Below are positions 11,015 to 64,000 of a stretch of 64,000 nucleotides of DNA, in pieces. The notes under the pieces are model-generated. The model was not told the DNA's origin. It saw only the letters and a program-made list of their open reading frames with translations, and did not search any database. The translations under genes and the position numbers were made by a program. Every line of letters starts with the position of its first letter. The stretch's first letter is position 1. The stretch lies in contig NZ_JAHCQH010000025.1 in NCBI RefSeq assembly GCF_018449475.1, positions 1 to 64,000 on the forward strand, in the 5' to 3' direction. This DNA comes from Ancylobacter radicis. GTDB lineage: Bacteria; Pseudomonadota; Alphaproteobacteria; Rhizobiales; Xanthobacteraceae.

Positions 11015-11036
11015 GGACAACCTCGATCTTTGAAAA

Positions 11037-11114: not shown

Positions 11115-11134
11115 GGATGGTGGGGGTCCGGCAT

Positions 11135-12106: not shown

Positions 12107-12117
12107 GGGAATTCTCC

Positions 12118-25061: not shown

Positions 25062-25181
25062 GCAGAGGCGATATTTTCCAGAAACTTTGACGGCGAAGCG
25101 GTTTACAGCCATGCTCCTGTCACGGCACAGCGTTTGATTGGTTCGTCGAACGAAGGCCGCGATCCTAAGGCGGGGGCGCCC

Positions 25182-25679: not shown

Positions 25680-25754
25680 TCCTTCCATCGCCCACCCTTG
25701 AATCCGCCCGCACTTTGGTGACGAATACGGCTCCCTGACCCGAGGAGCCCGCGA

Positions 25755-26744: not shown

Positions 26745-26750
26745 GCGGCC

Positions 26751-42174: not shown

Positions 42175-42178
42175 GATG

Positions 42179-48886: not shown

Positions 48887-49831
48887 ATGAACATGCAGTC
48901 CGGCTCCCCCAACGGCTCCCCGACCGACATCCGCAACCTGCTGCTCGACGCGGCCGGGCTGTCGCTCGACAAGCTGCCGATGCTCAACGTCATCTTCGAC
49001 CGCATGGCGACGCAATGCGCGGAAAGCCTGCGCCAGCTCGTCGCCTCGCAGGCCTATTACTCGCTCAGCGATGTCGAGAGCGGGCGCATCGGCGACGTCC
49101 TCGACAGCTATGAAGGCATGGCCGTGGTGGGCGTGTTCCACTCACCCGAATGGGACAGCCACGCCATCGTCGGCTTCGATCGCGACTTCATCTTCACCAT
49201 GGTGGAAGTGCTGTTCGGGGCGGATGGCTCCGAGCCGCCGGTCGATGACGAGCGGTCCTTCTCCAATATCGAGATGCGCATCGCCCAGGCGCTGTTCGAG
49301 CAGATGGCCAAGGCCCTGCAAAGTGCCTTCTCGCTGGTCAGCAAGGCGACCTTCAAGTTCCAGCGGCACGAGACGCGCATGGATTTTGCCGTCATCGGGC
49401 GGCGCAACAATCTGGCCATCTGCGCCAAGTTCCTGCTTCAGGCGATCAATCGCGGCGGCGAGATGTTCGTGCTGATCCCGCAAGGCGCCCTCACCCCCCT
49501 GCGCCAGCAGCTCGCCAGCACCACGGCGGGCGAATCGGCGCCGAGCGATCCGGTGTGGAGCAAGCACATTCGCGGCGAGGTGCAGCGCACCGAGGTGCGG
49601 CTGCGCGCGGTGCTGGAGCAGCGCGAGATCACGCTCGGCGAGGCCGCCGCGCTGGAAGTCGGGCAGATCCTGACCCTGCAGGCGACGCCGCGCAGCCGGG
49701 TGAAGCTGGAGAGCACCGAGGAAGGCCTGTTCTGGTGCAGCCTCGGGCAAGCCGAGGGTGCGTATGTGTTGCGCATCGAAGATGCCGTCGATCAGGCCCA
49801 GGAGTTCCTCGATGATATTCTCCCCCGGTGA
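48887..49831 (+). CDS. fliM: Flagellar motor switch protein FliM
   Basis: 314 residues. Middle CheC-like domain (GMAVVGVFHSPEWDSHAIVGFDRDFIFTMVEVLFG) and a C-terminal SpoA domain (about 230-300). The N-terminal CheY-binding LSQxEIDALL motif of E. coli is not recognisable, as is usual for divergent rhizobial FliM. It forms the C-ring with FliN and FliG, all encoded here. Three bases separate it from motA. Confidence 0.9.
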   Translation: MNMQSGSPNGSPTDIRNLLLDAAGLSLDKLPMLNVIFDRMATQCAESLRQLVASQAYYSLSDVESGRIGDVLDSYEGMAVVGVFHSPEWDSHAIVGFDRDFIFTMVEVLFGADGSEPPVDDERSFSNIEMRIAQALFEQMAKALQSAFSLVSKATFKFQRHETRMDFAVIGRRNNLAICAKFLLQAINRGGEMFVLIPQGALTPLRQQLASTTAGESAPSDPVWSKHIRGEVQRTEVRLRAVLEQREITLGEAAALEVGQILTLQATPRSRVKLESTEEGLFWCSLGQAEGAYVLRIEDAVDQAQEFLDDILPR

Positions 49832-50150
49832 GGCCGTGCTGTTCGTCGCCCTCGTGGTGACCAGCGTCTGCGTGGTGCTGATGTATCGCAAGCTGGGCGC
49901 CCTCTCCGCCTATCAGCGCGATTACCGCGTGGCGCTCGACGACAGCGCCAACGCCCTGCACCACGCGCGCAACGCGATGGCGCTCTTGAACGATGACAGC
50001 CGCGAGCTGCTCATGCTGCTCTCCCACAAGATCCAGGATGCCGAAACGCTGCTCTGGCGCCTCGAACATGCGCAGAACGCGGCCCGCAACGGCAAGCCCG
50101 GCGCCGGCCCGGCCGGCAGTCCCCCTCCCGCTCCCAAGGTGAAGCCATGA
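49812..50150 (+). CDS. Small membrane-anchored protein between fliM and fliN, unknown function
   Basis: 112 residues. One N-terminal membrane segment (about 8-24), then a helical region with coiled-coil character (YRKLGALSAYQRDYRVALDD to about residue 95) and a Pro-rich tail. It starts inside fliM (20-base overlap), with GGAG seven bases upstream, and its stop overlaps fliN. The shape recalls the small DUF6468-type proteins of alphaproteobacterial flagellar loci; I infer this from layout only. Position suggests a factor at the C-ring/membrane interface. Confidence 0.7.
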   Translation: MIFSPGEAVLFVALVVTSVCVVLMYRKLGALSAYQRDYRVALDDSANALHHARNAMALLNDDSRELLMLLSHKIQDAETLLWRLEHAQNAARNGKPGAGPAGSPPPAPKVKP

Positions 50151-50476
50151 CCGAAACCTTCGCGCCCGAACCCATCACCGGCGGCGGCTCTGTCGAGGAG
50201 ACCTTCGCCGGCCGCGGCCTCGATTCCCTGCTGCGCGTTTCCGTGACGATGCAGGTCGTGCTCGGCTCGGCCAATCTCCCGGTCGCCCAGCTCATGAAGC
50301 TCGGCCGCGGCGCCATCGTGCCGCTCGACCGCCGCGTCGGCGAGCCGGTGGATGTGGTGGTGAACGGCCGCATCCTGGCCCGCGGCGAAGTCGTCGTGGT
50401 CGATGAGGACAATTCGCGCTTCGGCGTTTCCCTGACCGAGATCGTCGGGGCCGCGGGCAACGACTCGAACCGCTGA
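50147..50476 (+). CDS. fliN: Flagellar motor switch protein FliN
   Basis: 109 residues. One SpoA domain: LLRVSVTMQVVLGSANLPVAQLMKLGRGAIVPLDR and EPVDVVVNGRILARGEVVVVDEDNSRFGVSLTEI. Forms the base of the C-ring. The start overlaps the previous stop as ATGA. Confidence 0.95.
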   Translation: MTETFAPEPITGGGSVEETFAGRGLDSLLRVSVTMQVVLGSANLPVAQLMKLGRGAIVPLDRRVGEPVDVVVNGRILARGEVVVVDEDNSRFGVSLTEIVGAAGNDSNR

Positions 50477-50489
50477 TCGGGAGCCGTAA

Positions 50490-51521
50490 ATGGCCGTAGC
50501 TCCCACGGTGCGGGGCGTCAGCAACCGCCCCCTGCACGGCGTCGATCGTGTGGCCGCCCTGCTCATGACCATGGGCAAGCCGGCCGCGGCGCGCCTCATG
50601 AAACATTTCGAGCCGGACGAGATCCGGCTCATCACCCGCACCATCGCCGAGATGCGCCCCGTGACCACCCATCAGGTGGAAATGGCCATCGAGGAATTCG
50701 CCGCCCAGTTCGTCGCCGGCGCCAATATCGGCGGTTCGGCGAGCGATGTGGAGCGTCTGCTCGCCGGCGTGCTGCCGCCCGATCAGATCAGCGAGATCAT
50801 GAACGATGTGCTGGGCGCGGCCAACCACTCGATCTGGGATCGCATCTCCGGCGTCACGGAAGGCACCATCGCGACCTATGTGATGAAGGAACATCCGCAG
50901 ATCGCGGCGCTGATCCTGTCCAAGGTGAAGCCCAACTGCGCCGCCAAGGTGCTCGGCCATCTGCCGGAGGAGATGCGCAACGGCGTGATGCGCCGCATGC
51001 TCGCCTTCAAGCCGATCGTCGACGAGACCATGCGCATCATCGAGAGCACGATCCATGAGGACTTCATGGTCAATCTCGCGCGCAATGCCGGCTCCGACAC
51101 CCATGCCCGCATCGCCGACATCATCAACAAGATGGAGCGCAACGACATGGAGAACGTGCTCACCAGCCTGTCCTCCACGCGCCCCAAATCGGCGGAAATC
51201 CTCAAGGGTCTGCTGTTCACCTTCGACGACATCATCAACCTGCCGCCGCGCGCGCGGACCTCGCTGTTCGACCAGGTGCCGAACGACAAGACCGTGCTGG
51301 CGCTGAAGGGAACGGACCCGGAATTCCGCGAGACCATCCTGCAATCGCTCGGCTCGCGCGTGCGCCGCATGGTCGAGCAGGAGCTGTCGACCAGCGAGCC
51401 GGCGGCCGCGCGCGACGTCGCCGAGGCGCGGCGCGTCATCACCGACCTCGCGCTGGAAATGGCGGGTCGCGGCGAAATCGAGCTGAACTCCGGCGGTGAG
51501 GAAGACGCCTATGTGCGCTAG
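50490..51521 (+). CDS. fliG: Flagellar motor switch protein FliG
   Basis: 343 residues, normal length. Armadillo-like middle domain with the EHPQ motif (KEHPQIAAL) and a C-terminal torque domain with charged residues around DDIINLPPRARTSLFDQVP. It couples the stator MotA to the rotor. Preceded by GGGAG. Confidence 0.96.
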   Translation: MAVAPTVRGVSNRPLHGVDRVAALLMTMGKPAAARLMKHFEPDEIRLITRTIAEMRPVTTHQVEMAIEEFAAQFVAGANIGGSASDVERLLAGVLPPDQISEIMNDVLGAANHSIWDRISGVTEGTIATYVMKEHPQIAALILSKVKPNCAAKVLGHLPEEMRNGVMRRMLAFKPIVDETMRIIESTIHEDFMVNLARNAGSDTHARIADIINKMERNDMENVLTSLSSTRPKSAEILKGLLFTFDDIINLPPRARTSLFDQVPNDKTVLALKGTDPEFRETILQSLGSRVRRMVEQELSTSEPAAARDVAEARRVITDLALEMAGRGEIELNSGGEEDAYVR

Positions 51522-51544
51522 TACTCGCCAGGTCCGAGGATGCT

Positions 51545-52621
51545 ATGTCCGAGGATAACGACAAGGAAAGTAAAACCGAGGAAGCCAGCGAAAAGAAGAT
51601 CTCCGACGCAGTGGAAAAGGGAAACATCCCCTTTTCCAAGGAAGCCACGCTGTTTGCGTCCCTCATGGGCATTCTCGTCTCGCTCAGCTTCTTCGCCGGG
51701 CCGCAGAGCGCCGCGCTGACGCAGGGACTGGCGCGCTTCATCGACAATCCCGGCGGCTTTCGCCTGACCACCAGCGAGGACGCGACGAATATCCTCTGGA
51801 TGGCCTTCGACGTCGGCGCGCGCTTCCTGCTGCCCATCGTCATCGTCCTCTCGGTCGCCGGCGTGGTCGCTGCGCTGGCGCAGAACACCCCGCGCATGGT
51901 CGGCGAGCGGATCCGCCCGCAATGGTCGCGCGTCTCCCCGATGGGCGGCTGGAAGCGCCTGTTCGGGCGGCAGGGGCAGATGGAATTCCTGAAATCGCTG
52001 TTCAAGTTCGGCGCGATTTCGCTGGTCTGCGGCCTGCTGCTGTTCTCCGGCCAGGACAGCATCACCGCGGCCCTGTCGAGCGATCCGGTGCTGGTGCCCT
52101 CGATGCTGCTCGGTCTCGCCGTGCGGCTGATCTCCGCCGTGTGCGTGGCCACCATCGCGCTGGTCGGTGTCGATCTGGTCTGGTCGCGCCTGCACTGGAA
52201 GGCCGAGCTGCGCATGACCAAGCAGGAGGTGAAGGACGAGTTCAAGCAGGCCGAGGGCGACCCCATGGTCAAGGCGCGCATCCGCTCGATCGCCCAGGAG
52301 CGCGCCCGCCACCGCATGATGAACGCGGTGCCGCGCGCCTCCATCGTGCTCGCCAACCCCACCCATTACGCCATCGCGCTCTATTACGACCGGCAGAAGG
52401 GCGGCGCGCCGCTGGTGCTCGCCAAGGGCACCGACCTGATCGCGCTGAAAATCCGCTCCGTCGCCGAGAGCCACGGCATTCCCGTCGTCGAGGACCGCGC
52501 CTTGGTGCGCGCCATGTACGACGCCATCGAGGTCGACCAGTGGATTCCGGCGGAATTCTACCGGCCGATCGCCAAGATCCTCTATTTCATCTACGCACGA
52601 GGCAAGAATGCCAAAAGCTGA
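51545..52621 (+). CDS. flhB: Flagellar export switch protein FlhB
   Basis: 358 residues. Four membrane segments and a cytoplasmic domain with the autocleavage motif N271-P-T-H274. Cleavage there switches export from rod/hook to filament substrates. The hook-length ruler FliK is not in the window. It starts 23 bases after fliG. Confidence 0.96.
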   Translation: MSEDNDKESKTEEASEKKISDAVEKGNIPFSKEATLFASLMGILVSLSFFAGPQSAALTQGLARFIDNPGGFRLTTSEDATNILWMAFDVGARFLLPIVIVLSVAGVVAALAQNTPRMVGERIRPQWSRVSPMGGWKRLFGRQGQMEFLKSLFKFGAISLVCGLLLFSGQDSITAALSSDPVLVPSMLLGLAVRLISAVCVATIALVGVDLVWSRLHWKAELRMTKQEVKDEFKQAEGDPMVKARIRSIAQERARHRMMNAVPRASIVLANPTHYAIALYYDRQKGGAPLVLAKGTDLIALKIRSVAESHGIPVVEDRALVRAMYDAIEVDQWIPAEFYRPIAKILYFIYARGKNAKS

Positions 52622-53066
52622 TGGCGCTTTCCGCCTCGACAAGCAGGCCCTGCCCCCGCTCGCCCTGCTGCCCTATGAGAAACTGCTCGGCGACACGCTG
52701 CGCGGCTTTCTCAGCGAGCTGTTCTTCACCAGCGCCGGCGTGGTCATGGCCTATATCAGCCGCCGCCAGGACGAGAACATCCAGGATCTCATCGCCTCCT
52801 CGGCCGAGCTGTTTCTCAAGCCCGGCCTGCTGCATTACGGCCGCCACGCCGCCATCGAGAGCGACTGGGGCACCCCGCCCAATGTCAGCATCAGCATGGT
52901 GCTGCGCCAGGCGACGCTCACCGCCGCCTTCCGCGTGGTGTTCGACGACAGCGCCATCGGCGTGCATATCGACCGCATCGACTTCACCGGCGGCCCCGCC
53001 TCGGCCGATGACAATCTCCAGCGTTTCGCCACCGCCCTTGCCGCCGCCCGGCTCGCCGGGAACTAG
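52608..53066 (+). CDS. Unknown protein downstream of flhB
   Basis: 152 residues. No signal peptide or obvious membrane segment; mixed alpha/beta composition with segments such as PYEKLLGDTLRGFLSELFFT and NVSISMVLRQATLTAAFRVVFDD. The start lies 14 bases inside flhB, so it is cotranslated. I do not recognise a family. Position as the last gene of the motA operon suggests a flagellar role, but nothing in the sequence shows which. Confidence 0.7.
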   Translation: MPKADGAFRLDKQALPPLALLPYEKLLGDTLRGFLSELFFTSAGVVMAYISRRQDENIQDLIASSAELFLKPGLLHYGRHAAIESDWGTPPNVSISMVLRQATLTAAFRVVFDDSAIGVHIDRIDFTGGPASADDNLQRFATALAAARLAGN

Positions 53067-53101
53067 GCGGGGACCGAGCGGGAGCCAGCGGCGGCCGGCC
53101 T

Positions 53102-53129
53102 GATAATCCTTTCCCTTTAAAGGATTATC
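53102..53129. other. AT-rich perfect inverted repeat upstream of flgB
   Basis: GATAATCCTTT (53102-53112) and AAAGGATTATC (53119-53129) form an 11-bp perfect stem with loop CCCTTT. It lies between the last gene of the motA operon and the flgB promoter region, 31 bases before the CCAG element. It has no following T tract, so an operator or mRNA 3' hairpin is as likely as a terminator. Confidence 0.6.
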
Positions 53130-53159
53130 TCAAAACTCCCCCCGCCCCGGCGGCCTGCG

Positions 53160-53173
53160 CCAGCCTCGTGCAA
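53160..53173 (+). promoter_or_regulatory. Flagellar upstream element, flgB copy (CCAG-N6-GCAA)
   Basis: CCAGCCTCGTGCAA followed by GGTT; first base 57 nt before the flgB TTG. CCTAG at offset 23 is shared with the motA copy. Together with the copies at 44942, 47850 and 47941 it defines a conserved element. Confidence 0.65.
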
Positions 53174-53216
53174 GGTTCTGTCCCTAGGGTGCTCCCATCG
53201 CAATGCGGAGCGTCTC

Positions 53217-53600
53217 TTGGACAAGGTCTATCTCTTCGATCTCGCCTCCCGCCATGCCGCCTGGGCCTCGGTGCGGCAGGCGACCATCGCCTCGAACATC
53301 GCCAACGCCAATACGCCCGGCTACCGGGCGGCGGAGGTCGAGCCGTTCGCGTCGGTGCTGGATCGCACCCATCTGGCGGAAGCCCGCACCAACCCCGGCC
53401 ATCTCTCCCTGTCGGCGCCCGGCGCCGCCACGGTGGCGATGGACGACGCGGACAGCTGGAGCGTGTCGGAAAGCGGCAACACGGTGAGCATCGACCAGCA
53501 GATGGTCAAGGCCTCCGAGGTCAGCGGCGCCTTCAGCCTGAACACCAGTATCGTCCGCTCCTTCCACAAGATGGTGCTGGCCAGCGTGAGGAATTCCTGA
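53217..53600 (+). CDS. flgB: Flagellar basal-body rod protein FlgB
   Basis: 127 residues, with rod consensus ASNIANANTPGYRAAEVEPF. TTG start at 53217 with GGAG six bases upstream; no ATG fits the reading frame. First gene of the flgB-flgC-fliE-flgG operon. Confidence 0.93.
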   Translation: MDKVYLFDLASRHAAWASVRQATIASNIANANTPGYRAAEVEPFASVLDRTHLAEARTNPGHLSLSAPGAATVAMDDADSWSVSESGNTVSIDQQMVKASEVSGAFSLNTSIVRSFHKMVLASVRNS

Positions 53601-54022
53601 TGATCGATCCTCTGAAGTCGATCTCCGCGATCGCCAGCTCGGGCATGGAAGCCCAGTCGCTGCGCATGCGGGTGGCGTCCGAGAACATCGCCAATGCCCG
53701 CGCCACGGCGACGGCGCCGGGCGAGACGCCCTATGTGCGCAAGACCATTCATTTCTCCGCCCAGCCCATGCGCGAACTCGGCGTCTCCCGCGTCGCCGTG
53801 AGCCAGCTCGGCGTCGACCAGACCACGCCCTTCACCGTCGAGCACGACCCCGGCAACCCGGCCGCCGACGCGAATGGCAATGTGAAAATGCCCAACGTCA
53901 ACCCGCTCGTCGAAATGGCGGATCTGCGTGAAGCCGGCCGTTCCTATTCGGCCAATCTTCAGATGATGAAGCAGGCCCGTTCCATGATTTCGATGACCAT
54001 AGACCTGCTGAGGGCTGGATGA
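53600..54022 (+). CDS. flgC: Flagellar basal-body rod protein FlgC
   Basis: 140 residues. Rod protein consensus (SSGMEAQSLRMRVASENIANA) and C-terminal ARSMISMTIDLLR helix. The start shares a base with the flgB stop (TGATG). Confidence 0.95.
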   Translation: MIDPLKSISAIASSGMEAQSLRMRVASENIANARATATAPGETPYVRKTIHFSAQPMRELGVSRVAVSQLGVDQTTPFTVEHDPGNPAADANGNVKMPNVNPLVEMADLREAGRSYSANLQMMKQARSMISMTIDLLRAG

Positions 54023-54345
54023 TGCTCGACCCGATTGCTTCCTTCGCGCCGATCCGCACCACCGGCACCGCGGCGGCCTCCGCCGCCGGCCCGGCCTCGG
54101 CAGCGGCCCCGAGCCGCGCCGTGTCCGGCACCGATTTCGCCGATGTCTTCGCCGACGTCTCCGGCCAGGCCGTGAACGCGCTGAAGAACGCGGAGGCGAC
54201 CTCCATCACCGGCATTCAGGGCAAGGCCTCGGTGCAGCACGTGGTGCAGACCATCATGGCGGCGGAGGAAAGCCTCCAGACCGCCCTCGCCGTCCGCGAC
54301 AAGGTCGTCGCGGCCTATCAGGAAATCTCGCGGATGGCGATCTGA
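54019..54345 (+). CDS. fliE: Flagellar hook-basal body protein FliE
   Basis: 108 residues. C-terminal helix [28 protein letters not shown] matches FliE, the adaptor between MS ring and rod. Start ATG overlaps the flgC stop (ATGA); a second ATG follows directly. Confidence 0.93.
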
Positions 54346-54355
54346 GGACACTGAC

Positions 54356-55144
54356 ATGAGAGCACTGGCCATCGCCGCCACCGGCATGAGCGCGCAGCAG
54401 ACCAATGTGGAAGTGATCGCGAACAACATCGCGAACATCAACACCACCGGCTTCAAGCGCGCGCGCGCCGAATTCTCCGATCTGCTCTATCAGGCCGAGC
54501 GCGCCGGGGGCGTTCCCAATGTGGATGGCGGACTGCCCATCCCGGACGGGGCGCTGGTCGGCCTCGGCGTGCGCACCGTCGGCGTGCGCAACCTGCACAT
54601 GCAGGGCCCGCTGACCCAGACCGGCAACCCGCTCGACCTCGCCATCAATGGCCGTGGCTGGTTCCAGATCACCAGCCCGACCGGCGAGACGGTCTATACG
54701 CGCGCCGGCTCCTTCAACAAGGGACCGGAAGGCCAGCTCGTCACCAATGACGGCTATGTCGTCGAGCCGGCCATCAACTTCCCGGCCGACACGGTGGAAA
54801 TCGTCATCAACGAGACCGGGCAGGTCTACGCCAAGACCGCCGGACAGGCCGCGCCGCAGATGCTCGGCCAGCTCAACCTCGCCAATTTCGCCAATGATGG
54901 CGGGCTGGAGCCGATCGGCAACAATCTCTATCGCGAGACCGATGCCTCCGGCACCGCGACCATGGGCGTCGCCGCCGATACCGGCTTCGGCAAGATGCAT
55001 CAGGGCTATCTGGAATCCTCCAACGTGGATCCGGTCAAGGAGATCACCGAGCTGATCTCCGCCCAGCGCGCCTATGAGATGAATTCCAAGGTAATCCAGG
55101 CCGCCGACGAAATGGCCGCCACCGTCTCCAAGGGCATCCGCTAG
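54356..55144 (+). CDS. flgG: Distal rod protein FlgG
   Basis: 262 residues, the standard length. Start [35 protein letters not shown] and end [30 protein letters not shown] match consensus. The stop codon lies within the first arm of the repeat that follows. Confidence 0.97.
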
Positions 55145-55247
55145 AGCTTTTTCGGTGAGCTCCGGTTCATCGAAAAAGCTCTAGCTTATTGTTCTGACGC
55201 ATTTTCTTCACGCGAACCGGAATCCGCTTCGCTCGAAAATGCTCTAG
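55141..55247. repeat. Dispersed palindromic repeat between flgG and flgA
   Basis: CTAGAGCTTTTTCG (55141-55154) and CGAAAAAGCTCTAG (55171-55184) form a 14-bp perfect stem. A second hairpin follows with GCATTTTC (55199-55206) and GAAAATGC (55235-55242) and an inner GCGAACCGGAATCCGCTTCGC stretch, ending CTCTAGC. Sequences of this kind are scattered in Hyphomicrobiales genomes. It overlaps the flgG stop and separates flgG from flgA, possibly tuning their ratio. Confidence 0.75.
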
Positions 55248-55261
55248 CAAGGATACGCATC

Positions 55262-55870
55262 ATGCTTCGGCATCTGTGGGGCGCGGCGCTCGCGCTCGCC
55301 CTTTCCTGTGCGCTCGCCCAGGGATCGGCGACGGCTCAAGAGGCGACCAGGGGCGCGTTCCGCGTCGCCGGCACGTCGATCGCCGACACCCGCGCCCACG
55401 ATGCCACGCTCGGCGACTGGATGGCCCCCGTGCCCGCCGGAGCCGCCCGCGCGCCGGCCGCCCGGCCCGCCACAGCCGCGGAAATCCATCTCCCGGTCGC
55501 CGCCGGCGCCATCGCGCCGGGCGACAAGATCACTGACGACATGCTGGTCGACCGCGCCTTCCCCTCCTCCGTCGCCAGCCAGTACCCGATCGCCATCACC
55601 CGCGCCCAGCTCGTGGGCAAGGTGGCGCGCCGCGTGCTGCTCGCCGGCAATGTCATTCCGGTCGCCGCCGTCGGCGACGCCAAGGTCGTCACGCGCGGCG
55701 TCGCCGCCGAGCTGCGCTTCGAGCAGGACGGCCTCGTCATCACCGCGCTCGGCGTGCCGCTGGATTCCGGCACGGTCGGCGCCGTGGTCCGGCTGAAGAA
55801 CATCGACAGCGGCAAGGTCGTGACCGGCGTCGTGCAGGATGACGGCTCGGTGAAGGTGGGCGGCAAATGA
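55262..55870 (+). CDS. flgA: P-ring assembly chaperone FlgA
   Basis: 202 residues. Signal peptide about 1-26 (ends ATAQ). The C-terminal SAF domain shows IAPGDKITDDMLVDRAFPSS, VGKVARRVLLAGNVI and VRLKNIDSGKVVTGVV. Periplasmic chaperone for FlgI, encoded next with a four-base overlap. Confidence 0.92.
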   Translation: MLRHLWGAALALALSCALAQGSATAQEATRGAFRVAGTSIADTRAHDATLGDWMAPVPAGAARAPAARPATAAEIHLPVAAGAIAPGDKITDDMLVDRAFPSSVASQYPIAITRAQLVGKVARRVLLAGNVIPVAAVGDAKVVTRGVAAELRFEQDGLVITALGVPLDSGTVGAVVRLKNIDSGKVVTGVVQDDGSVKVGGK

Positions 55871-57009
55871 AGCGCCCGCGGATGAACCGACTCCTCGCCA
55901 CCGCCCTGCTGCTGCTCGCCGGCCTCGCCAGCGCCGGCGCGGCGACCCGCATCAAGGACGTGTCCACCGTCCAGGGCGTGCGCGACAACCAGCTTGTCGG
56001 CTACGGCCTCGTCATCGGCCTTCAGGGCACCGGCGACACGCTGCGCAACTCGCCTTTCACCGAGCAGGCCATGCAGTCCATGCTCGACCGGCTCGGCGTC
56101 AGCACGCGCGGCATCCCGCTGCGGGCGCGCAATGTCGCCGCCGTCGCCGTCACCGCCAACCTGCCGCCCTTCGCCGGTGTCGGCTCGCGCATCGACATCA
56201 ACGTCGCTTCGCTGGGCGATGCCTCCTCGCTGCGCGGCGGCACGCTGATCCTCACCCCGCTCAACAGCGGCGACGGGCAGACCTATGCGGTCGCGCAGGG
56301 TCAGCTCGCCGTCACCGGCTTCTCGGCCGAGGGCGAGGCGGAGAGCATCACCCAGGGCATCCCCACCGCCGCGCGCATTCCCAATGGCGCGCTGGTCGAG
56401 CGCCCCGCGCCCGGCGTGCTGAACGAGCTGCACAGCTTCGTGCTGGAGCTGAACAATCCGGATTTCGCCACCGCCGCGCGCATCGCCGACGTGATCAATG
56501 CCCGCTTCGGCAAGATCAAGTTCGACTATGGCAAGCTCGGCGGGCCCAACAAGCCGATCGCCCAGGAGCGCGACCTGCGCAGCGTGGTGGTGCAGCGCCC
56601 GCCGCAGATCAACCCGGCCCGCTTCCTCGCCATGGTCGGCGACCTGCCGGTCGAGCCGGACGCCCCCGCCCGCGTGGTGGTGGACCAGCGTTCCGGCACG
56701 GTGGTGATCGGGCGCAACGTCAAGATTTCGACCGTCGCCATCACCCAGGGCAATCTGACGGTGCGCGTCACCGAGACGCCGGAAGTCTCCCAGCCCGCCC
56801 CCTTCTCCGACGGTGAGACGGTCGTCGTGCCGCGCACCGACATCGGCATCGAGCAGGATGGCGGCTACCTCTCCGTCGTGCGCGGCCCCGATCTGGACAC
56901 CCTCGTGCAAGGTCTGAACCGTATGGGGATGAGGCCGACGGACATCATCGCTGTCCTTCAGGCGATCAAGACCTCCGGCGCGCTCCAGGCCGAGCTGGTG
57001 GTCCAGTAA
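55867..57009 (+). CDS. flgI: Flagellar P-ring protein FlgI
   Basis: 380 residues, normal length. Signal peptide about 1-25. Consensus ATRIKDVSTVQGVRDNQLVGYGLVIGLQGTGDT at the mature start and GLNRMGMRPTDIIAVLQAIKTSGALQAEL at the end. It forms the bushing in the peptidoglycan. Confidence 0.97.
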   Translation: MKRPRMNRLLATALLLLAGLASAGAATRIKDVSTVQGVRDNQLVGYGLVIGLQGTGDTLRNSPFTEQAMQSMLDRLGVSTRGIPLRARNVAAVAVTANLPPFAGVGSRIDINVASLGDASSLRGGTLILTPLNSGDGQTYAVAQGQLAVTGFSAEGEAESITQGIPTAARIPNGALVERPAPGVLNELHSFVLELNNPDFATAARIADVINARFGKIKFDYGKLGGPNKPIAQERDLRSVVVQRPPQINPARFLAMVGDLPVEPDAPARVVVDQRSGTVVIGRNVKISTVAITQGNLTVRVTETPEVSQPAPFSDGETVVVPRTDIGIEQDGGYLSVVRGPDLDTLVQGLNRMGMRPTDIIAVLQAIKTSGALQAELVVQ

Positions 57010-57072
57010 TCCCGGCCCGGCCCGCCTTACCCCACCCGCCAACCGCCCAGCCCCCTTCGAGGAGCCACGCCC

Positions 57073-57882
57073 ATGACGATCGTGACCGTGCTGTCTCACC
57101 TGCTGATCTTCCTCCTGGGCGGCGGCCTTGGCCTCATGGCGGCGGCGCTGTGTTTCGCCGCCCGTCATTCCGACGGGGAAGACGACGAGTGGAACGGGCA
57201 GCCGTGGAACGGTCCGCGGGCGGTCCCGGCGCGGACGCCGGGCCTGCCCGCGCCGGCCCGCTCCTTTGCCAAGCGCGGCATCAACCTGCTGATCCTCACT
57301 GGCCTGACCGTCCACCTCACTGCACTGACGCTCCACGGCGCCGACGCCGAATCCGCGCCCGCCAAACCGGCCGCGCCGGTGCAGGCGCTTCCCGCCGCCG
57401 CGCCGGTTCCCGCCGTGCCGATGCCGTCCGGCGCCAGCAATACCGAGCAGTATTGCCAGAGCATCATCGACACCGCCCGCGACGCCCGCTTCGCCCGCCA
57501 GAAGACGGCCATCGAGGTGATGGAAAAGAACATCGAGGAGCGCATCGCCCAGCTTGAGGCCAAGCGCGCCGAATATGAGAAGTGGTTGACGCGCCGAGAG
57601 GATTTCCTGCGCAAGGCGGATGAATCGGTCATCGCCGTGATCTCGCAGATGCGCCCCGACGCCGCTGCCGCCCAGCTCACCGTGATGGCCGACGACCCGG
57701 CCGCCGCGATCCTCGCCAAGCTCAATCCGCGCGTCGCCAGCGCCATCATGAACGAAATGGACGCCACCCGCGCGGCCCGGATCACCGGCGTGATGGTCGG
57801 CATCGCCAAGCGGGCGGCCGAGGCCAAGGCCCAGGCTCCCAAATCGCCGGACGCCAAGGGGACCGAAGGCAAGCCCTCATGA
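57073..57882 (+). CDS. MotE-like flagellar protein (MgtE_N-like domain) with N-terminal membrane extension
   Basis: 269 residues. The second half matches rhizobial MotE, the chaperone of the stator ruler MotC: a coiled coil (VMEKNIEERIAQLEAKRAEYEKW) followed by a MgtE-N-like PDAAAAQLTVMADDPAAAILAKLNP region. Ahead of it lie two hydrophobic segments (about 5-30 and 77-97), separated by an acidic, Pro-rich stretch; MotE normally has only the second, as a signal peptide. Either the start is correct and the protein is a fusion, or translation begins later. It is 63 bases after flgI and overlaps flgH by four. Confidence 0.72.
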   Translation: MTIVTVLSHLLIFLLGGGLGLMAAALCFAARHSDGEDDEWNGQPWNGPRAVPARTPGLPAPARSFAKRGINLLILTGLTVHLTALTLHGADAESAPAKPAAPVQALPAAAPVPAVPMPSGASNTEQYCQSIIDTARDARFARQKTAIEVMEKNIEERIAQLEAKRAEYEKWLTRREDFLRKADESVIAVISQMRPDAAAAQLTVMADDPAAAILAKLNPRVASAIMNEMDATRAARITGVMVGIAKRAAEAKAQAPKSPDAKGTEGKPS

Positions 57883-58595
57883 AACGCCTTCTCCTGCCCC
57901 TCGCCCTGCTCGGCCTAACTGCTTGTCAGAGCAACAAATATGACAGCCTCGCCAATGGTCCGTCGCTGACACCGGTCGGCTACGGCATCCAGGCGCAGGC
58001 CGATCCGATCCCCATGTCCTACCCGCCGCCGCCGACACGCAGCTTCGCCTCGACCTGGGACAAGGGCAGCGAAAGCCTCTACCGCAGCATCCGCGCCACC
58101 AAGGTCGGCGACACGCTGAAGGTGGATATCTCGCTCGACGACAAGGCCGAGTTCGATAACGAGACCGGCCGTTCGCGCAAGTCCGCGCAGGATGCCGGGC
58201 TGGATATCGCTGCCGGCGCAGAGGGTTACGGTTGGGCGGGCGGCTATGGCTCGGCCACCGGCTCGCTCACCATGAACTCGGACACCGAGGCGAAGGGCAA
58301 GGGCTCGATCGACCGCTCGGAAAAGCTGCGGCTCGCCGTCGCCGTGGTCGTCACCGAGGTCCTGCCGAACGGCAACCTGATGATCCGCGGCTCGCAGGAG
58401 ATTCTGGTGAACTACGAGGTCCGCGTGCTGACGATCGCCGGCATGGTGAACCCGCTGGACATCACCGGCGGCAACCAGATCGCCTATGACCGGATCGCCG
58501 AAGCCCGCATTTCCTACGCCGGTCGCGGCCGGCTCAACGATGTCCAGCAGCCGGCCTGGGGCCAGCGCATTTACGACCTCGTTGTTCCCTTCTGA
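57879..58595 (+). CDS. flgH: Flagellar L-ring lipoprotein FlgH
   Basis: 238 residues. Lipoprotein signal with lipobox LTAC (acylated C16). Consensus KVGDTLKVDISLDDKAEFDNETGR and LPNGNLMIRGSQEILVNYEVRVLTIAGMV. Outer-membrane ring. Overlaps the upstream gene as ATGA. Confidence 0.96.
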   Translation: MKRLLLPLALLGLTACQSNKYDSLANGPSLTPVGYGIQAQADPIPMSYPPPPTRSFASTWDKGSESLYRSIRATKVGDTLKVDISLDDKAEFDNETGRSRKSAQDAGLDIAAGAEGYGWAGGYGSATGSLTMNSDTEAKGKGSIDRSEKLRLAVAVVVTEVLPNGNLMIRGSQEILVNYEVRVLTIAGMVNPLDITGGNQIAYDRIAEARISYAGRGRLNDVQQPAWGQRIYDLVVPF

Positions 58596-58621
58596 TGAAC
58601 CGATAACTGGCGGGGGCCACC

Positions 58622-59125
58622 ATGGCGCAAGCAATCAAGACAGACGGCAAGGCCGCAGGCGGCAAGGGCGGCGTGGTCGTGGCGCTCTGCGTCCTCACAC
58701 TCCTCGCGGCCGCCGGCGGCGGCGGGCTCGGCATCCAGCTCGCCTCCACCGTCGAGCAGGTCGTGACGGAAAAAGCCAAGGAAAAGGAAGAGGTTGAAGC
58801 GAACAAGCCGCCGCTGCGCTATACCGATCCCGAGATGGTGATGGAAAGCCTCAAGCCCATCGTCTCCAATCTCGGGGCGCCCAGCAGCACCTTCGTGCGC
58901 ATCGAGGCCTCGATCATCTTCAAGAACGGCACCCTGGCCAATCCGCAGATCGCCGCCGCGCAGATCCGCGAGGATGTGATGGCCTATCTGCGCACCCTCT
59001 CGCTCAGCCAGCTGGAAGGGCCGAGCGGCCTCATCCATCTGCGCGAGGACCTCAACGAGCGCGCCCGCATGCGCTCGGAAGGCAACGTGCAGGAACTGGT
59101 GATCGAAACGCTGGTGGTGCAATGA
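58622..59125 (+). CDS. fliL: Flagellar basal-body-associated protein FliL
   Basis: 167 residues. N-terminal membrane segment (about 18-40) and periplasmic FliL domain (LKPIVSNLGAPSSTFVRIEASIIF, REDLNERARMR). It supports stator function. The stop overlaps the fliP start as ATGA. Confidence 0.9.
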   Translation: MAQAIKTDGKAAGGKGGVVVALCVLTLLAAAGGGGLGIQLASTVEQVVTEKAKEKEEVEANKPPLRYTDPEMVMESLKPIVSNLGAPSSTFVRIEASIIFKNGTLANPQIAAAQIREDVMAYLRTLSLSQLEGPSGLIHLREDLNERARMRSEGNVQELVIETLVVQ

Positions 59126-59880
59126 CCCGCCGGCTGCTTCCGGCCGGGCTCGCGCTCGGCGCCGGTCTCCTGTTCGCCGTGCCGGCCCTTGCCCAGCAGA
59201 CGCCGAGCCTCTCGGAACTGTTGAACGAGGCGGGCGGCGGGGCAGCCTCGGGCCGCATCGTGCAGATGATCGCCCTGCTCACCGTGCTCTCGGTGGCGCC
59301 GGGTCTGCTCATCATGGTCACGAGCTTCACGCGCTTCGTCATCGCGCTGTCCTTCCTGCGCTCGGGCCTTGGCCTGCAGTCGACGCCGGCCAATCTGGTG
59401 CTGATCTCGCTGTCGCTGTTCATGACCTTCTATGTGATGGGCCCGACCTTCGACCGGGCCTGGACGCAAGGCATACAGCCGTTGACCGCCAACGAGATTT
59501 CCGAACAGGAGGCGATCAAGCGGGTGGCCGAGCCGTTCCGCGAATTCATGCTCACCCAGGTGCGCCCCAAGGATCTCCAGACCTTCGCCGACCTCGCTGC
59601 GGCCAATGGCCAGGTGGTGGCGGCGGCGCCGGAGGAGGTGGAGCTGCGCATCCTCATCCCCGCTTTCATGATTTCGGAATTGCGGCGCGGCTTCGAGATC
59701 GGCTTCCTGATCATGCTGCCGTTCCTGATCATCGACATGATCGTGGCCACCCTCGTCATGTCGATGGGCATGATGATGATGCCGCCGGCGGTCATCGCCC
59801 TGCCCTTCAAGATTCTGTTCTTCATCCTGATTGATGGTTGGAACCTGCTGGTCGGCGGACTGGTGCGCTCCTTCTATTGA
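59122..59880 (+). CDS. fliP: Flagellar export apparatus protein FliP
   Basis: 252 residues. Cleavable signal (1-25, ends ALAQ), then four membrane segments with FTRFVIALSFLRSGLGLQSTPANLVLISLSLFMTF and the conserved LPFLIIDMIVATLVMSMGMMMMPP. Gate component with FliQ and FliR. fliO is not next to it. A terminator follows. Confidence 0.97.
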   Translation: MTRRLLPAGLALGAGLLFAVPALAQQTPSLSELLNEAGGGAASGRIVQMIALLTVLSVAPGLLIMVTSFTRFVIALSFLRSGLGLQSTPANLVLISLSLFMTFYVMGPTFDRAWTQGIQPLTANEISEQEAIKRVAEPFREFMLTQVRPKDLQTFADLAAANGQVVAAAPEEVELRILIPAFMISELRRGFEIGFLIMLPFLIIDMIVATLVMSMGMMMMPPAVIALPFKILFFILIDGWNLLVGGLVRSFY

Positions 59881-59914
59881 CGCGTAGTCGGAGACCGATT
59901 TGGGGGTCTTCGGG

Positions 59915-59946
59915 AGGGCGGTTCGCGCAAGCGGGCCGCCCTTTTT
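59915..59946 (+). terminator. Intrinsic terminator after fliP
   Basis: AGGGCGG (59915-59921) pairs with CCGCCCT (59936-59942) followed by five T residues. It ends the flgB-fliP operon and isolates the flagellin gene. Confidence 0.8.
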
Positions 59947-60103
59947 CTTGGTCCCTGCAGCGGTCAAGAGGGTGCAAGCCCCGGGCAAGTATGCCGTGCG
60001 ACCGTCCGTGCATGGCAGATTGACTGCTGGTCCCTCGGGTCCGGCAGGAGAGGTACCGCCCAGGTGCGGCAGCTCTCGACAAAGGCATGAAGCCGTTTCT
60101 GCC

Positions 60104-60162
60104 ATGCCGGTTTCAGTCCGGTATGTCCCCTTGAAACCAACCATCTCCAAACAAAGGGACAT
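60104..60162 (+). promoter_or_regulatory. Flagellin mRNA leader with alternative hairpins over the ribosome site
   Basis: Three pairings are possible: ATGCCGG (60104-60110) with CCGGTAT (60118-60124), one G-U; GGTTTCA (60109-60115) with TGAAACC (60132-60138); and ATGTCCC (60123-60129) with GGGACAT (60156-60162). The last covers the Shine-Dalgarno AAGGGA that lies eight bases before the flagellin start. The three overlap or interleave, so they cannot all form. In Caulobacter FlbT acts on the flagellin leader; flbT and flaF are in this locus. Confidence 0.55.
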
Positions 60163-60167
60163 TCGTC

Positions 60168-61421
60168 ATGACCAGCCTTATGACCAACACCTCCTCGATG
60201 GTCGCCCTGCAGACCCTGCGGTCGATCAATTCGAACCTCGACCAGACCAATAACCGCGTCTCCACCGGCCTCCGCGTCAATTCGGCGGCCGACAACGCGG
60301 CCTATTGGTCGATCGCCACGACGACCCGCTCCGACAACGGTGCGCTCGGCGCGGTGAAGGACTCCCTCGGCCTCGCCAAGTCTTCCGTCGACACCGTCAA
60401 CACCGGTCTCGATACGGTTCGCACGGCGCTGCAGAAGGTGAAGGAAAAGCTCATCACGGCCGCGTCCCCGGACGCCGACCGTGCCAAGCTTCAGACGGAA
60501 ATTGGCAGCCTCCTCGGCGCTCTCAAGAACAACGCTGAGAGCACGGTCATTTCCGGCAGCAACTGGCTGTCGGTGGACTCGAGCGGCACCAATTACAACG
60601 CCACCAAGGCGGTGGTCGCTTCGTTCTCCCGCACCGGCGATTCGGTGCAGGTCGACACGATCGACATCGACACCAGCAAGTTCAAGCTGCTGGATGCCAA
60701 CGCGACGGTTCACACTGCGGTTGACGCGGCCGTGACCACCTCGTCGGCGACCTACACCACCGCCAAGAGCACGGCGACGACCGCCTACGACACCGCCAAG
60801 ACCACGGCGGACACGACCTACAACACCGACATCGCGACGGCTGATACGACCTTCGCCGGCAGTGCCATGGACGCAGCGGCTGTTGCCGCCCGTGACGCTT
60901 CCTACGCGACGGCCACCAACACTCGCGATGCTTCCTACGCGACCGCTGAGACCACGAAGAAGACGGCTCTCGACGGCGCTGTTCTGGCGCTGACCAACTC
61001 GCTGTCCGCGTCCGGTACCGACAACCTCGGTATCCTGGACAAGTCCCGCGTGTCCGCCACCGCCAACGGCACGGCGACCATCAGCTCGATCATGGACATC
61101 GACATCTCGTCGCTGACCTCGAGCCAGGACGACCTCGACAAGATCGCGAACTACACCTCGATCGTCGACGCCGCCCTGAGCGACCTGACCGACGCGTCGA
61201 CGAACCTCGGTTCGACGGCGAGCCGCATCGAGTCGCAGACCAACTTCGTGCAGGCCCTTCAGGACGCCAACAACCGCGCCATCGGCGCTCTTGTTGATGC
61301 GAACATGGAAGAGGAATCGACCCGTCTGAAGGCGCTGCAGACCCAGCAGCAGCTCGCCGTTCAGTCGCTTGGTATCGCCAACTCCAGCTCGCAGAGCGTG
61401 CTCAGCCTCTTCCGCGGCTGA
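60168..61421 (+). CDS. fliC: Flagellin
   Basis: 417 residues. N-terminal consensus about 11-60 (LQTLRSINSNLDQTNNRVSTGLRVNSAADNAAYWSIA) and C-terminal VDANMEEESTRLKALQTQQQLAVQSLGIANSSSQSVLSL. The central region, residues about 190-270, is unusual: Thr/Ala/Asp-rich with aromatic or leucine residues every 11 positions (Y196, Y207, Y218, F229, Y246, Y257, L268). It is the only flagellin gene in the window. Codon use in the repeat region includes slightly more T-ending codons than its neighbours. Flanked by terminators on both sides. Confidence 0.96.
   Translation: MTSLMTNTSSMVALQTLRSINSNLDQTNNRVSTGLRVNSAADNAAYWSIATTTRSDNGALGAVKDSLGLAKSSVDTVNTGLDTVRTALQKVKEKLITAASPDADRAKLQTEIGSLLGALKNNAESTVISGSNWLSVDSSGTNYNATKAVVASFSRTGDSVQVDTIDIDTSKFKLLDANATVHTAVDAAVTTSSATYTTAKSTATTAYDTAKTTADTTYNTDIATADTTFAGSAMDAAAVAARDASYATATNTRDASYATAETTKKTALDGAVLALTNSLSASGTDNLGILDKSRVSATANGTATISSIMDIDISSLTSSQDDLDKIANYTSIVDAALSDLTDASTNLGSTASRIESQTNFVQALQDANNRAIGALVDANMEEESTRLKALQTQQQLAVQSLGIANSSSQSVLSLFRG
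60753..60971 (+). repeat. 33-nt periodic repeats inside the flagellin gene (11-residue units)
   Basis: Units begin at codons 60753, 60786, 60819, 60852, then after a 51-nt irregular unit at 60903, 60936 and 60969. Each 33-nt unit encodes one aromatic/large hydrophobic residue followed by ten Thr/Ala/Asp/Lys-rich residues. The units are diverged at DNA level, so this is old or under selection. Confidence 0.7.
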
Positions 61422-61473
61422 TCCAGGGGCTTCGGCCCTCCTAGGGTTGTCTCCCGCCGTTCACGGCGCACCT

Positions 61474-61508
61474 GGCCACGCTCCCCCCGGAGCGTGGCCT
61501 TTCTTTTT
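61474..61508 (+). terminator. Strong intrinsic terminator of the flagellin gene
   Basis: GGCCACGCTCC (61474-61484) and GGAGCGTGGCC (61489-61499) form a perfect 11-bp stem with loop CCCC, followed by TTTCTTTTT. Confidence 0.93.
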
Positions 61509-61764
61509 CCCGCCCCTCCGGCGCCACGCCGCCTCCACGCAATCTCCAGGCAAGCTCGTTGCCGCAAGGTGTTTGCGGGCAGAGCGGTTTCCCCCAGCCC
61601 GGCACTGCCCTCGCGCGGTTACCCGCGCCGACCCGCGTCGGACCCACGCCCCCCGGGAATGACGCGTTTGTCGAAGCTGACGCCCCGGGCCCCCGCCCCG
61701 GGGCGTCATGCCTTCCCGTCCTGGCGACGGTCCTCGGGGGATTGGTGATGGAGCAACAAACCAG
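61509..61764. repeat. Flagellin-fliF intergenic region with GC palindrome
   Basis: TGACGCCCCGG (61678-61688) and CCGGGGCGTCA (61698-61708) form a perfect 11-bp stem with a nine-base loop, resembling the REP-type repeats elsewhere. No gene, and no copy of the CCAG-N6-GCAA element at the expected distance from fliF, is seen in the remaining bases. Confidence 0.5.
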
Positions 61765-63426
61765 ATGATCGGTCGCGAGCAGCTCGAAATGCTTTTGAGC
61801 AACCTGCGCCAGCTCGGCGCACGGCGCCTGATCGCGCTCGGTCTCATCGGCCTGACCGTCCTCGGCGCCATCGGCCTCGGCGCCTATTTTCTCAGCCGGC
61901 CGACCACCGAGACGCTCTATGCCAACCTCAACCGCGAGGACGTGACGCGGATCGGCGGCGCGCTCAAGGATTCCGGCATCGCCTTCGACGTCAATTCGGA
62001 CGGCACCTCCGTGCTGGTGGCACCGGCCGACACGGCCCGCGCCCGCATGCTGCTGGCCGAGAAGGGCCTGCCGCAAAGCTCCAGCTCCGGCTACGAACTG
62101 TTCAACGACGTCAATTCGCTCGGCCTCACTTCCTTCATGCAGGAAGTCACCAAGGTCCGCGCGCTGGAAGGCGAACTCGCCCGCACCATCCAGACCATGA
62201 AGGGCGTGAAGGCCGCGCGCGTGCACATCGTGCTGCCGGACCGCGCCTCCTTCCGCCGCGAGCAGCAGCAGGCGTCCGCCTCCGTCGTCATCCGCACCGA
62301 GGATGCGGCGGACGATTCCGCCGCCGACGCCATCCGCCATCTCGTCGCCGCGGCCCTGCCCGGCATGAAGATGGATTCCGTCACGGTGCTGAACACCGAG
62401 GGCGCGGTGCTGGCCGCCGGCGACGACCCGGCCAATGCCGCCGCGGGCAAGAAGTCGGTGCTGCAGGATCAGGTCAATCGCGACACCGAGGCCAAGATCC
62501 GCCGCGCGCTCACGCCCTATCTCGGCATCGACAATTTCCAGATCAGCGTCTCCACCCGGCTCGACACCGACCGCGTGACGATGAACGAGACGACCTTCGA
62601 TCCGGCCTCCAAGACCGAACGCTCCGTGCGCGTCATCAAGGAGACCGGCACCTCGCAGAACCGCTCCCAGCAGCAGCCGGCCGGCGTGCAGCAGAACATC
62701 CCCCAGCAGCAGGCGGACGGCGCTGGCGGCAACAACTCCAATGAAGAGAACAACCGGCGCGAGGAGCTGACCAATTTCGAGATTTCCTCGCGCCGCACCG
62801 AGACGGTGCGCGAGGGCTTCACGGTCGAAAACCTGTCCATCGCCATTCTGGTGAATCGGGCCCGGCTCAGCGCCACCGGCGAGGGGCAGGACGCCGTGCC
62901 GCTCGAGACGCAGATCTATGAGATCGAGCAGCTCGCTGGCGCCGCCGCCGGTTTCGACAAGGCGCGCGGCGACAAGCTGAAGGTCTCCGCCGTCGCCTTC
63001 GCCGCCGGCAATGGCGAGCTGGAGCCCGTGCCGCCGCTGAGCTGGACCGATGTGCTGATGCGCCAGGCCGGGACGCTGGTCAACGCCGCGACGATCCTCA
63101 TCGTCGCCGCCCTGCTGATCTGGTTCGGCCTCCGGCCCGCCGTGCGCGCCATTGTCACGCGGCCCGAGGAGGCCGAGGCGATCGAGGCCGCCATGCTGGC
63201 CGGCCCGGCCGGCGCCATGGGTGAACTGCCCGCTCCCGAAAGCGCCGAGCGCCCGCCCGGCGTGCCCGGCATCCCCGGCGTGAGCGACCCGGTGAACCTG
63301 ATCGAGGACCTCACCAGCAAGATGAACCGATCGCCGCAGAAGCGGCTGGAGCAGATCGTCGACTTCGATGAGGAGCAGGCCGCCGCCATCCTGCGGCAGT
63401 GGCTGCAGAAAGAGGCTCGCGCCTGA
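61765..63426 (+). CDS. fliF: Flagellar M-ring protein FliF
   Basis: 553 residues. N-terminal membrane segment (about 22-45) followed by the ring-building motifs (YANLNREDVTRIGGALKDSGI, GLPQSSSSGYELFN, ARVHIVLPDR), a second membrane segment near the C-terminus (VNAATILIVAALLIWFGL), and the FliG-binding tail. ATG at 61765 follows GGAG by eleven bases. The Gln/Asn-rich stretch in the middle is normal for the family. Confidence 0.95.
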   Translation: MIGREQLEMLLSNLRQLGARRLIALGLIGLTVLGAIGLGAYFLSRPTTETLYANLNREDVTRIGGALKDSGIAFDVNSDGTSVLVAPADTARARMLLAEKGLPQSSSSGYELFNDVNSLGLTSFMQEVTKVRALEGELARTIQTMKGVKAARVHIVLPDRASFRREQQQASASVVIRTEDAADDSAADAIRHLVAAALPGMKMDSVTVLNTEGAVLAAGDDPANAAAGKKSVLQDQVNRDTEAKIRRALTPYLGIDNFQISVSTRLDTDRVTMNETTFDPASKTERSVRVIKETGTSQNRSQQQPAGVQQNIPQQQADGAGGNNSNEENNRREELTNFEISSRRTETVREGFTVENLSIAILVNRARLSATGEGQDAVPLETQIYEIEQLAGAAAGFDKARGDKLKVSAVAFAAGNGELEPVPPLSWTDVLMRQAGTLVNAATILIVAALLIWFGLRPAVRAIVTRPEEAEAIEAAMLAGPAGAMGELPAPESAERPPGVPGIPGVSDPVNLIEDLTSKMNRSPQKRLEQIVDFDEEQAAAILRQWLQKEARA

Positions 63427-64000
63427 TGCACATGCTGATCGGTCACCTCCACGATTTCACCCACAGGCTGCCGCGCCGCCCCGGCGGCGAGGCGTCGAAT
63501 CCGGCCCTCGCCCTCATGGCTCCGGCCGCGCCGGTGGCGCCCTCCGCCGCGGCCGCGCGCCCGGCCGCCAATCCCGGACCGGACCTCACGGCCATCGCCG
63601 CCCAGGCCACCGCTGAAGGGCGGCTGGCGGGCGAAGCCGAGGCGCGCATCGCCTATGAGCGCCAGCGCAGCGAGGACATGGCGCGCACCGAGGAGCGTAT
63701 CGCGCAGGAGCGGCTCGGCTGGGTGGAACAGGAGAGCGAGCGCCTCGCCGCCGCCATCGACTCCGGCCTCGTCTCGCTGCGGGAGGAACTCGCCGACAGC
63801 CTTGCCCGCGTCATCGGCCCGTTCCTGCTCGGCGCCGTGCGCGAGCAGGCGCTCGCCGAGATGGCCACGCTCATCAATGACACGCTGTCCGGCGGCGACG
63901 CCCCGGTCATGCGCGTCACCGGCGCGCCCGATCTGATCGAGCAGTTGCGCGGCCGGATCGACCCGCGCGCACCCGTGACCTTCGAGCCCGGCCCGGAGAG
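63426..64000 (+). CDS. FliH-like flagellar protein, cut by the window end
   Basis: At least 191 residues; no stop before the window end. ATG at 63426 shares a base with the fliF stop (TGATG). After a Pro/Ala-rich N-terminus, a long charged helix (about 60-110, RIAYERQRSEDMARTEERIAQER) leads into an alpha/beta C-terminal region. This is the FliH/YscL layout, the stator-like regulator of FliI, but I see no decisive motif. fliI itself lies on the minus strand far upstream. Confidence 0.6.
   Translation, partial: MHMLIGHLHDFTHRLPRRPGGEASNPALALMAPAAPVAPSAAAARPAANPGPDLTAIAAQATAEGRLAGEAEARIAYERQRSEDMARTEERIAQERLGWVEQESERLAAAIDSGLVSLREELADSLARVIGPFLLGAVREQALAEMATLINDTLSGGDAPVMRVTGAPDLIEQLRGRIDPRAPVTFEPGPE

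Follow-up and report, generated by a model that had tools for sequence, protein, structure and literature searches.

Outer domains help to set the stiffness and surface of the flagellar filament, and solved flagellin outer domains are mostly beta-rich. The 64,000-nucleotide stretch of Ancylobacter radicis DNA analysed here (the window) encodes a flagellin whose centre, according to an earlier note, is built of 11-residue (hendecad) repeats and might form a helical hairpin or stalk on the filament surface. We asked whether this flagellin carries such a domain, how widely the domain occurs and what it might do on the filament. Features are listed in Table 1.

Table 1. Position of the flagellin gene, its domains and its DNA repeat in the window.
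Feature	Position	Strand	Basis
Flagellin gene, 417 aa	60168..61421	+	Flagellin_N and Flagellin_C Pfam matches
N-terminal core (D0/D1), residues 1-140	60168..60587	+	Pfam 6-135; dN/dS 0.118
Helical-hairpin outer domain (predicted), residues 179-281	60702..61010	+	AlphaFold2; gap in 303-347 aa relatives; dN/dS 0.209
Predicted helix 1, residues 179-230, ladder Y196-Y207-Y218-F229	60702..60857	+	AlphaFold2
33-bp tandem repeat encoding helix 1 hendecads	60750..60828	+	Tandem Repeats Finder, 2.4 copies, 80% matches
Predicted turn, residues 231-235 (GSAMD)	60858..60872	+	Non-helical in AlphaFold2 model
Predicted helix 2, residues 236-281, ladder Y246-Y257-L268, basic R242, R253, K264	60873..61010	+	AlphaFold2
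C-terminal core, Flagellin_C, residues 331-415	61158..61412	+	Pfam

The flagellin and its eleven-residue ladder

The gene product has both flagellin core domains, each scoring above the curated Pfam cut-off: Flagellin_N at residues 6-135 (7.2e-25, 88.1 bits against 26.6) and Flagellin_C at residues 331-415 (1.3e-16, 61.1 bits against 23). It lies in a flagellar gene cluster, the window also encoding FlaF, FlbT, FlgD, FlgK, FlgE, a second Flagellin_N/C protein, chemotaxis families and export proteins of families 1 and 3, which we take to be FliR and FliQ. Matches to PF00669 were found in the genome only in this gene and at 41797-42159. The second Flagellin_N/C protein (41137-42228) is taken as FlgL-type from its position adjoining FlgK, and the gene at 60168-61421 is the sole flagellin of the genome apart from it. 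The reading frames of the FlgL-type protein and FlgK (42179-43633), both on the minus strand, share 50 bases, and given this overlap the FlgL-type start may sit further in. Elsewhere in the window, two long open frames (8801-12196, plus strand, 1131 aa; 24432-27491, minus strand, 1019 aa) had no Pfam match at 0.001; the frame caller possibly picked the wrong strand for both.

The hydrophobic ladder of the earlier note (Y196, Y207, Y218, F229, Y246, Y257 and L268) was located exactly where it had been placed, from the start of residue 196 at 60753 to the end of residue 268 at 60971. Its members are 11 residues apart, with a single 17-residue break between F229 and Y246. Each had also been said to precede ten residues rich in Thr, Ala, Asp and Lys; this holds for 196, 207, 218, 246 and 257 but not for F229, which leads into an Ala-rich turn (AGSAMDAAAV) and not a Thr/Lys repeat, nor for L268 (followed by DGAVLALTNS), and the number of true units is therefore about five. 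In the DNA, units 196/207 and 207/218 have 25 of 33 bases in common, and other pairs of units 16-23.

Chance was modelled with 20,000 shuffles of residues 185-275. Four aromatic pairs were seen at lag 11 where 0.30 were expected, a number reached by none of the shuffles, and an equally good result at any lag from 2 to 23 had P=0.00015. Bulky hydrophobic pairs were also in excess at lag 11 (6 against an expected 2.05, P=0.005), weakening to P=0.10 at any lag from 2 to 23 because V185, V189, I222, M234, V239, V272, L273 and L275 fall outside the ladder. For hydrophobics plus Ala, 22 pairs were seen against 16.0 expected (P=0.0097; any lag 0.27). Residue self-identity was highest at lag 11 among lags 1-34 (0.39, z 5.7), with z 3.6 at lag 7 and z 2.3 at lag 22. 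A hydrophobic spectrum on the Fauchere-Pliska scale, which barely separates Ala from Thr, was computed over 13 distinct sequences (12 from the genus and one from a genome of another family, G369) and was significant for neither helix (P 0.37 and 0.87), its non-significant peaks falling at 3.77 and 3.88 residues per turn. The 11-residue sequence period is thus seen in aromatic spacing and self-identity and not in the hydrophobic spectrum; what recurs is aromatics and particular residues, not a strongly amphipathic pattern, and the amphipathic signal of the hairpin helices is weak. The reading of hendecad spacing as a sign of slightly right-handed coils agrees with what is said of 11/3 periodicity in PMC4786415.

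Predicted fold, packing and conservation

AlphaFold2 predicts two long helices, at residues 179-230 and 236-281, in keeping with the hairpin that had been proposed, and the predicted turn at 231-235 falls within the F229-Y246 break that had been suggested to hold it. Averaged by tens over residues 181-280, pLDDT is 82-98. Modelled in the full protein, residues 179-281 thus appear as neither a disordered stretch nor a beta domain, the two outcomes that would have spoken against the proposal; a helix-turn-helix is predicted instead of a beta-rich outer domain. Both helices hold few Gly and no Pro in the 13 sequences, and their length is estimated at 69-78 Å, with about 51 Å for the 34-residue repeat zone.

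The model was made from a shallow alignment of 12 orthologues (82-93% identical to the first sequence), and hendecads are described as particularly difficult targets for AlphaFold (PMC11676326). The five models average pLDDT 72.0, 69.0, 65.2, 62.5 and 57.3, with values mostly under 50 at residues 1-54, 127-162 and 404-417. The Thr/Ala-rich insert might instead be a disordered or partly helical linker, with AlphaFold2 over-predicting helix because the sequence is Ala-rich and Gly/Pro-poor. The shallow alignment, the weak model elsewhere, the abundance of Thr (27 of the 103 residues at 179-281) and the non-significant hydrophobic spectrum would all fit, but we consider this decidedly unlikely, against it being the fixed length in 13 of 13 sequences, conservation in 11-residue phase (P 0.006), a dN/dS of 0.21 and a turn predicted at the very break of the ladder.

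A register was assigned with a at 196/207/218/229 and 246/257/268, d at a+3 and h at a+7. The antiparallel a-d' pairs (196-271, 207-260, 218-249, 229-238, 246-221, 257-210 and 268-199) all sum to 467, which implies a fold centre of 233.5, inside the predicted turn, and h Ala stands opposite h' Arg/Lys at 203-264, 214-253 and 225-242. Agreement between register and turn needs just one phase in 11 and is therefore consistent with the hairpin without being decisive. Across the 13 sequences, a positions are aromatic, Leu, Ile or Val (D235 excepted) and d positions Ala, save that 221 is Ala or Asp (Asp in the window genome). The h positions are Ala in helix 1 (192 is Ala or Ser) and R242, R/K253 and K264 in helix 2, while e is mostly polar, being hydrophobic only at 222, 239 and 272 of seven places. 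The core of a hendecad coiled coil has hydrophobics at a, d, e and h (PMC6131620); this canonical core appears to be only partly present here, Tyr/Ala being set against Ala and Arg/Lys.

The periodicity, which the earlier note expected to see in orthologues, is retained in all 13 distinct sequences. Each is 417 aa long and hydrophobic at all seven ladder places, of which 196, 218, 229, 246 and 268 are invariant, 207 is Y or F and 257 is Y, I, F or V; no change in repeat copy number was found among them. In the turn, G231, A233, M234 and D235 are invariant in the 12 orthologues and S232 nearly so. Entropy at a/d/h is lower than at other positions (permutation P 0.006, 13 sequences). However, this register ranks fourth of 121. 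Of the three that explain conservation better, two assign the conserved positions of helix 1 to c/g/j, and two assign those of helix 2 to d/h/k. The c and j places of helix 1 include the invariant T198, T209, T220, T205, T216 and T227 and, counting A194, are invariant at 7 of 7 against 5 of 20 other non-core places, a comparison chosen post hoc (Fisher P 0.0009). Judged by the alignment, conservation seems to mark two faces, one the presumed core and the other an outer Thr face. By pooled counting, dN/dS is 0.209 for the hairpin and 0.118 and 0.119 for the core ends, which argues that the hairpin is kept by purifying selection, less strictly than the core. The stretches flanking the hairpin gave 0.183 and, for residues 282-320, 0.208. 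On the strength of the model, this insert is a real and new form of flagellin outer domain, a predicted Thr/Ala-rich helical hairpin with an 11-residue rhythm.

Distribution, relatives and origin

Flagellin_N proteins were found in 12 of the 30 Ancylobacter genomes examined, each of which encodes exactly two, the hendecad flagellin and an FlgL-type protein. All 12 flagellins are of the hendecad type, 417 aa long, and align without gaps. The 18 genomes without Flagellin_N point to scattered loss or gain of flagella, and one Ancylobacter species is listed with a lateral flagellar system only (PMC6406911). A functionless, neutral expansion of the 33-bp repeat, tolerated in a hypervariable region, would account for the tandem repeat in the DNA, and Escherichia coli K-12 flagellin lacking D2/D3 still allows some swimming (PMC12445082). 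Such drift is nevertheless very improbable when copy number is constant in 13 sequences, dN/dS is 0.21 and every flagellin-bearing genome of the genus (12 of 30) has this flagellin type and no other.

Over 297 genomes of the order, a profile of the hairpin matched two only, both Ancylobacter. A whole-flagellin profile matched at least 115 of 397 genomes of the order at 1e-20; among the matches listed was G369, with the same 417-aa type at 87% identity. G369 was absent from the hairpin-profile matches and may lie outside the 297-genome sample. The search of related genomes that the earlier note had suggested thus places the type in 12 Ancylobacter genomes and G369. Four relatives of 303-347 aa (L016-L019) show an alignment gap over all or nearly all of the insert. 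Of 78 named loci screened, 11 held a fragment only and were left out, leaving 67 readable flagellins; by eye, three were of the hendecad type, three came from Microvirga and 61 were beta, mixed or bare. Among 16 fetched regions, L130 was the one without a flagellin ORF. The premise that D2/D3 is normally beta-rich or missing agrees with PMC8306008, where Salmonella D2/D3 is mainly beta, outer domains may be lacking and Pseudomonas aeruginosa D2 is two beta-sheets and a helix. Five flagellins of Bosea, Tardiphaga and Bradyrhizobium (L038, L042, L044, L045 and L047), beta-looking by eye, are also exactly 417 aa, an equality that looks like coincidence. A screen for Gly/Pro-free stretches covered 93 flagellin rows and 70 distinct central regions of at least 40. 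It was imperfect: L113 scored only 28 and L039 36, and Methylobacterium-like stretches of 35-43 and L121 (35) were also picked.

Outside flagellins, no relative of the hairpin was found in PDB sequences (hairpin profile, up to E 1) or in BFVD (E 0.001), and Pfam gave matches only far below cut-off. A tblastn search of plasmids and phages at E 0.01 found no hairpin, its low-complexity filter possibly having masked the query. The 10-kb gene neighbourhood matched 18 plasmid records at 60-90% identity, and among the best 10 of the 18 the named ones were flagellar genes.

The region around the G369 flagellin (L120, G369:C1:58000-76800) and window positions 49727-63993 share a flagellar gene cluster whose order is conserved, with 76-78% DNA identity. 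G369 proteins are 87% (flagellin), 81% (FliP) and 78% (FliF) identical to those of the window, the corresponding values for Xanthobacter (L071) being 74% for FliP and 68% for FliF, and in a tree the G369 flagellin falls within the Ancylobacter group. RecA protein is 86% identical in G369 against 90-92% in two genomes from the same family as the window genome. Their RecA DNA gives no such separation, with 84.8% for G369 and 84.2-85.3% for the other two. Sequence comparison suggests a horizontal transfer of the flagellar cluster involving G369, while for lateral flagella in the order PMC6406911 gives no horizontal-transfer signal.

A second type of insert was seen in Microvirga (L039, L041, L043) and in G081 (L113): Ala-rich, helical-looking, at the place of the hendecad hairpin, with aromatics 7 apart. 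L113 was likened to the hairpins by its sequence. For L041, AlphaFold2 predicts helices at 193-215 and 220-250 (pLDDT 96-98 by tens), from an alignment in which one row was truncated (L016, 216 aa) and six lacked the insert. The aromatic-Ala pattern and the place are common to both types, but the Microvirga helices are shorter and their spacing is 7 residues. Helix 2 of Microvirga has hydrophobic spectrum peaks at 3.66-3.73 residues per turn, so that heptad is here a label for spacing only. The Microvirga profile matched six of 397 genomes at 0.01, with a flagellin in G081 only. The turns are similar (GSAMDAAAV in Ancylobacter, SSAKDAAAK in Microvirga). Homology of the two inserts was rejected as unproven, hhalign giving a probability of 18 over 8 columns and hairpin-free flagellins standing between them in the tree.

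That tree was built from 81 flagellin cores, omitting identical rows, eight near-identical genus rows and sequences shorter than 280 aa or without the C-terminal motif. The hendecad type forms a clade (support 100/99) beside Afifella (306 aa, no outer domain) and the beta-looking G201/G166 (branch 99/94). Microvirga adjoins Methylobacterium (99/93), and L113 stands alone on a long branch with weak support (92/64). Since hairpin-free rows lie between the hairpin types, two or three gains are the simplest account and several losses the alternative, the one-change count taking in grouped rows only and ignoring ungrouped ones. Taken with the hhalign result, the placement speaks for, but does not prove, separate origins of the hendecad and Microvirga hairpins.

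Proposed role on the filament

The D2 of Sinorhizobium meliloti FlaA is a globular domain not known to contain 11-residue repeats. This protein (7sn9, screw-like filament) is the nearest solved flagellin by sequence (1.1e-63), likewise with a single outer domain, D2. It leads the fold comparison of the whole Ancylobacter model (VIA Z 14.4, rmsd 5.1 over 287 residues; Foldseek TM 0.49 and 0.51) and is also first for the Microvirga model. As long helices match many folds, such structure lists give no proof of a new fold. In 7sn9 the D2 domains form dimers, with an up and a down conformation (PMC8931119).

Likenesses also exist outside flagella. Type I antifreeze protein of flounder is a single Ala/Thr-rich helix with an 11-residue period and a Thr ladder; the flagellin has an aromatic ladder and a hairpin instead, and the likeness is by description only. 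The peripheral stalk of rotary ATPases (b2, EG) is likewise a long stalk of 11-residue repeats (PMC6131620), but of two chains, whose right-handed coiling has been seen in structures, where the flagellin would be one chain folded back with other core residues. Tetrabrachion and the families of Martinez-Goikoetxea and Lupas 2023 are further non-canonical coiled-coil stalks, the 2023 ones hendecad (PMC11676326).

Fields et al. 2024 (Nat Commun 15:9500) reportedly clusters flagellar outer domains. No hendecad or coiled-coil hairpin flagellin was found described in the portions of the literature covered, though Fields et al. 2024 or Martinez-Goikoetxea and Lupas 2023 may mention one; for a helical-hairpin flagellin outer domain, the single match concerns the Leptospira sheath.

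We propose that the single Ancylobacter flagellin would have as its D2, at residues 179-281, a long antiparallel helical hairpin and not a beta-rich domain, zipped by large-against-small packing with aromatics facing Ala. Made of 7+4 repeats, the 69-78 Å rod would be stiff with hardly any curvature, and would decorate every subunit, stiffening or thickening the filament. That a hairpin D2 replaces the beta-rich domain with this effect is, on balance, probable. The hairpin would either lie along the protofilament or stand out as a bristle, and a role as stiff ridge or bristle is what we infer. From the core rise of 4.75 Å and twist of 65.46 degrees of S. meliloti (PMC8931119), the subunit spacing along the protofilament is 52 Å, against the 51 Å repeat zone. 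Axial hairpins would reach the next subunit and form ridges; radial ones would be at least 41 Å apart and free.

A radial hairpin could serve for display, standing free of its neighbours with its Thr-rich face perhaps O-glycosylated, for adhesion or for phage or host evasion. Lattice neighbours are 41 Å apart at an assumed D1 radius of 60 Å and 77 Å apart at 130 Å, so radial hairpins could hardly touch; Thr makes up 27 of 103 residues and is invariant at c/j of helix 1, and O-glycosylation at Ser/Thr is known from flagellins elsewhere in bacteria (PMC8306008). We hold this bristle doubtful all the same, as invariant Thr on one outer face equally fits a contact surface and no glycosyltransferase family was seen in the 20 window proteins scanned (of 60 ORFs; 4 of the 20 had no match), a weak absence. 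A contact role is slightly favoured over a free bristle because the Thr face is invariant, although this is a guess; in other flagella, contacts made by the outer domains bear on how stable the filament is or how well the cell moves (PMC10256154; PMC8931119). Naked, splayed, ridged, screw-like and sheathed filaments are given as a minimal list of architectures (PMC10256154). Hairpins following one another along the protofilament, their conserved Thr faces in contact with neighbours, would clad the filament in coiled coils; this sixth architecture would have evolved repeatedly in the order, by 7- and 11-residue spacings. We give little credence to this stronger form of the contact reading, which is a speculation.

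If the hairpin that we propose is real, it is a simple module whose length is adjustable in steps of 11 residues. Such stepwise length would make the relation of outer-domain length to stiffness and to swimming in thick media directly testable in a bacterium with one flagellin gene, with the 7-residue-spaced hairpin of Microvirga as a natural comparison on the same core.
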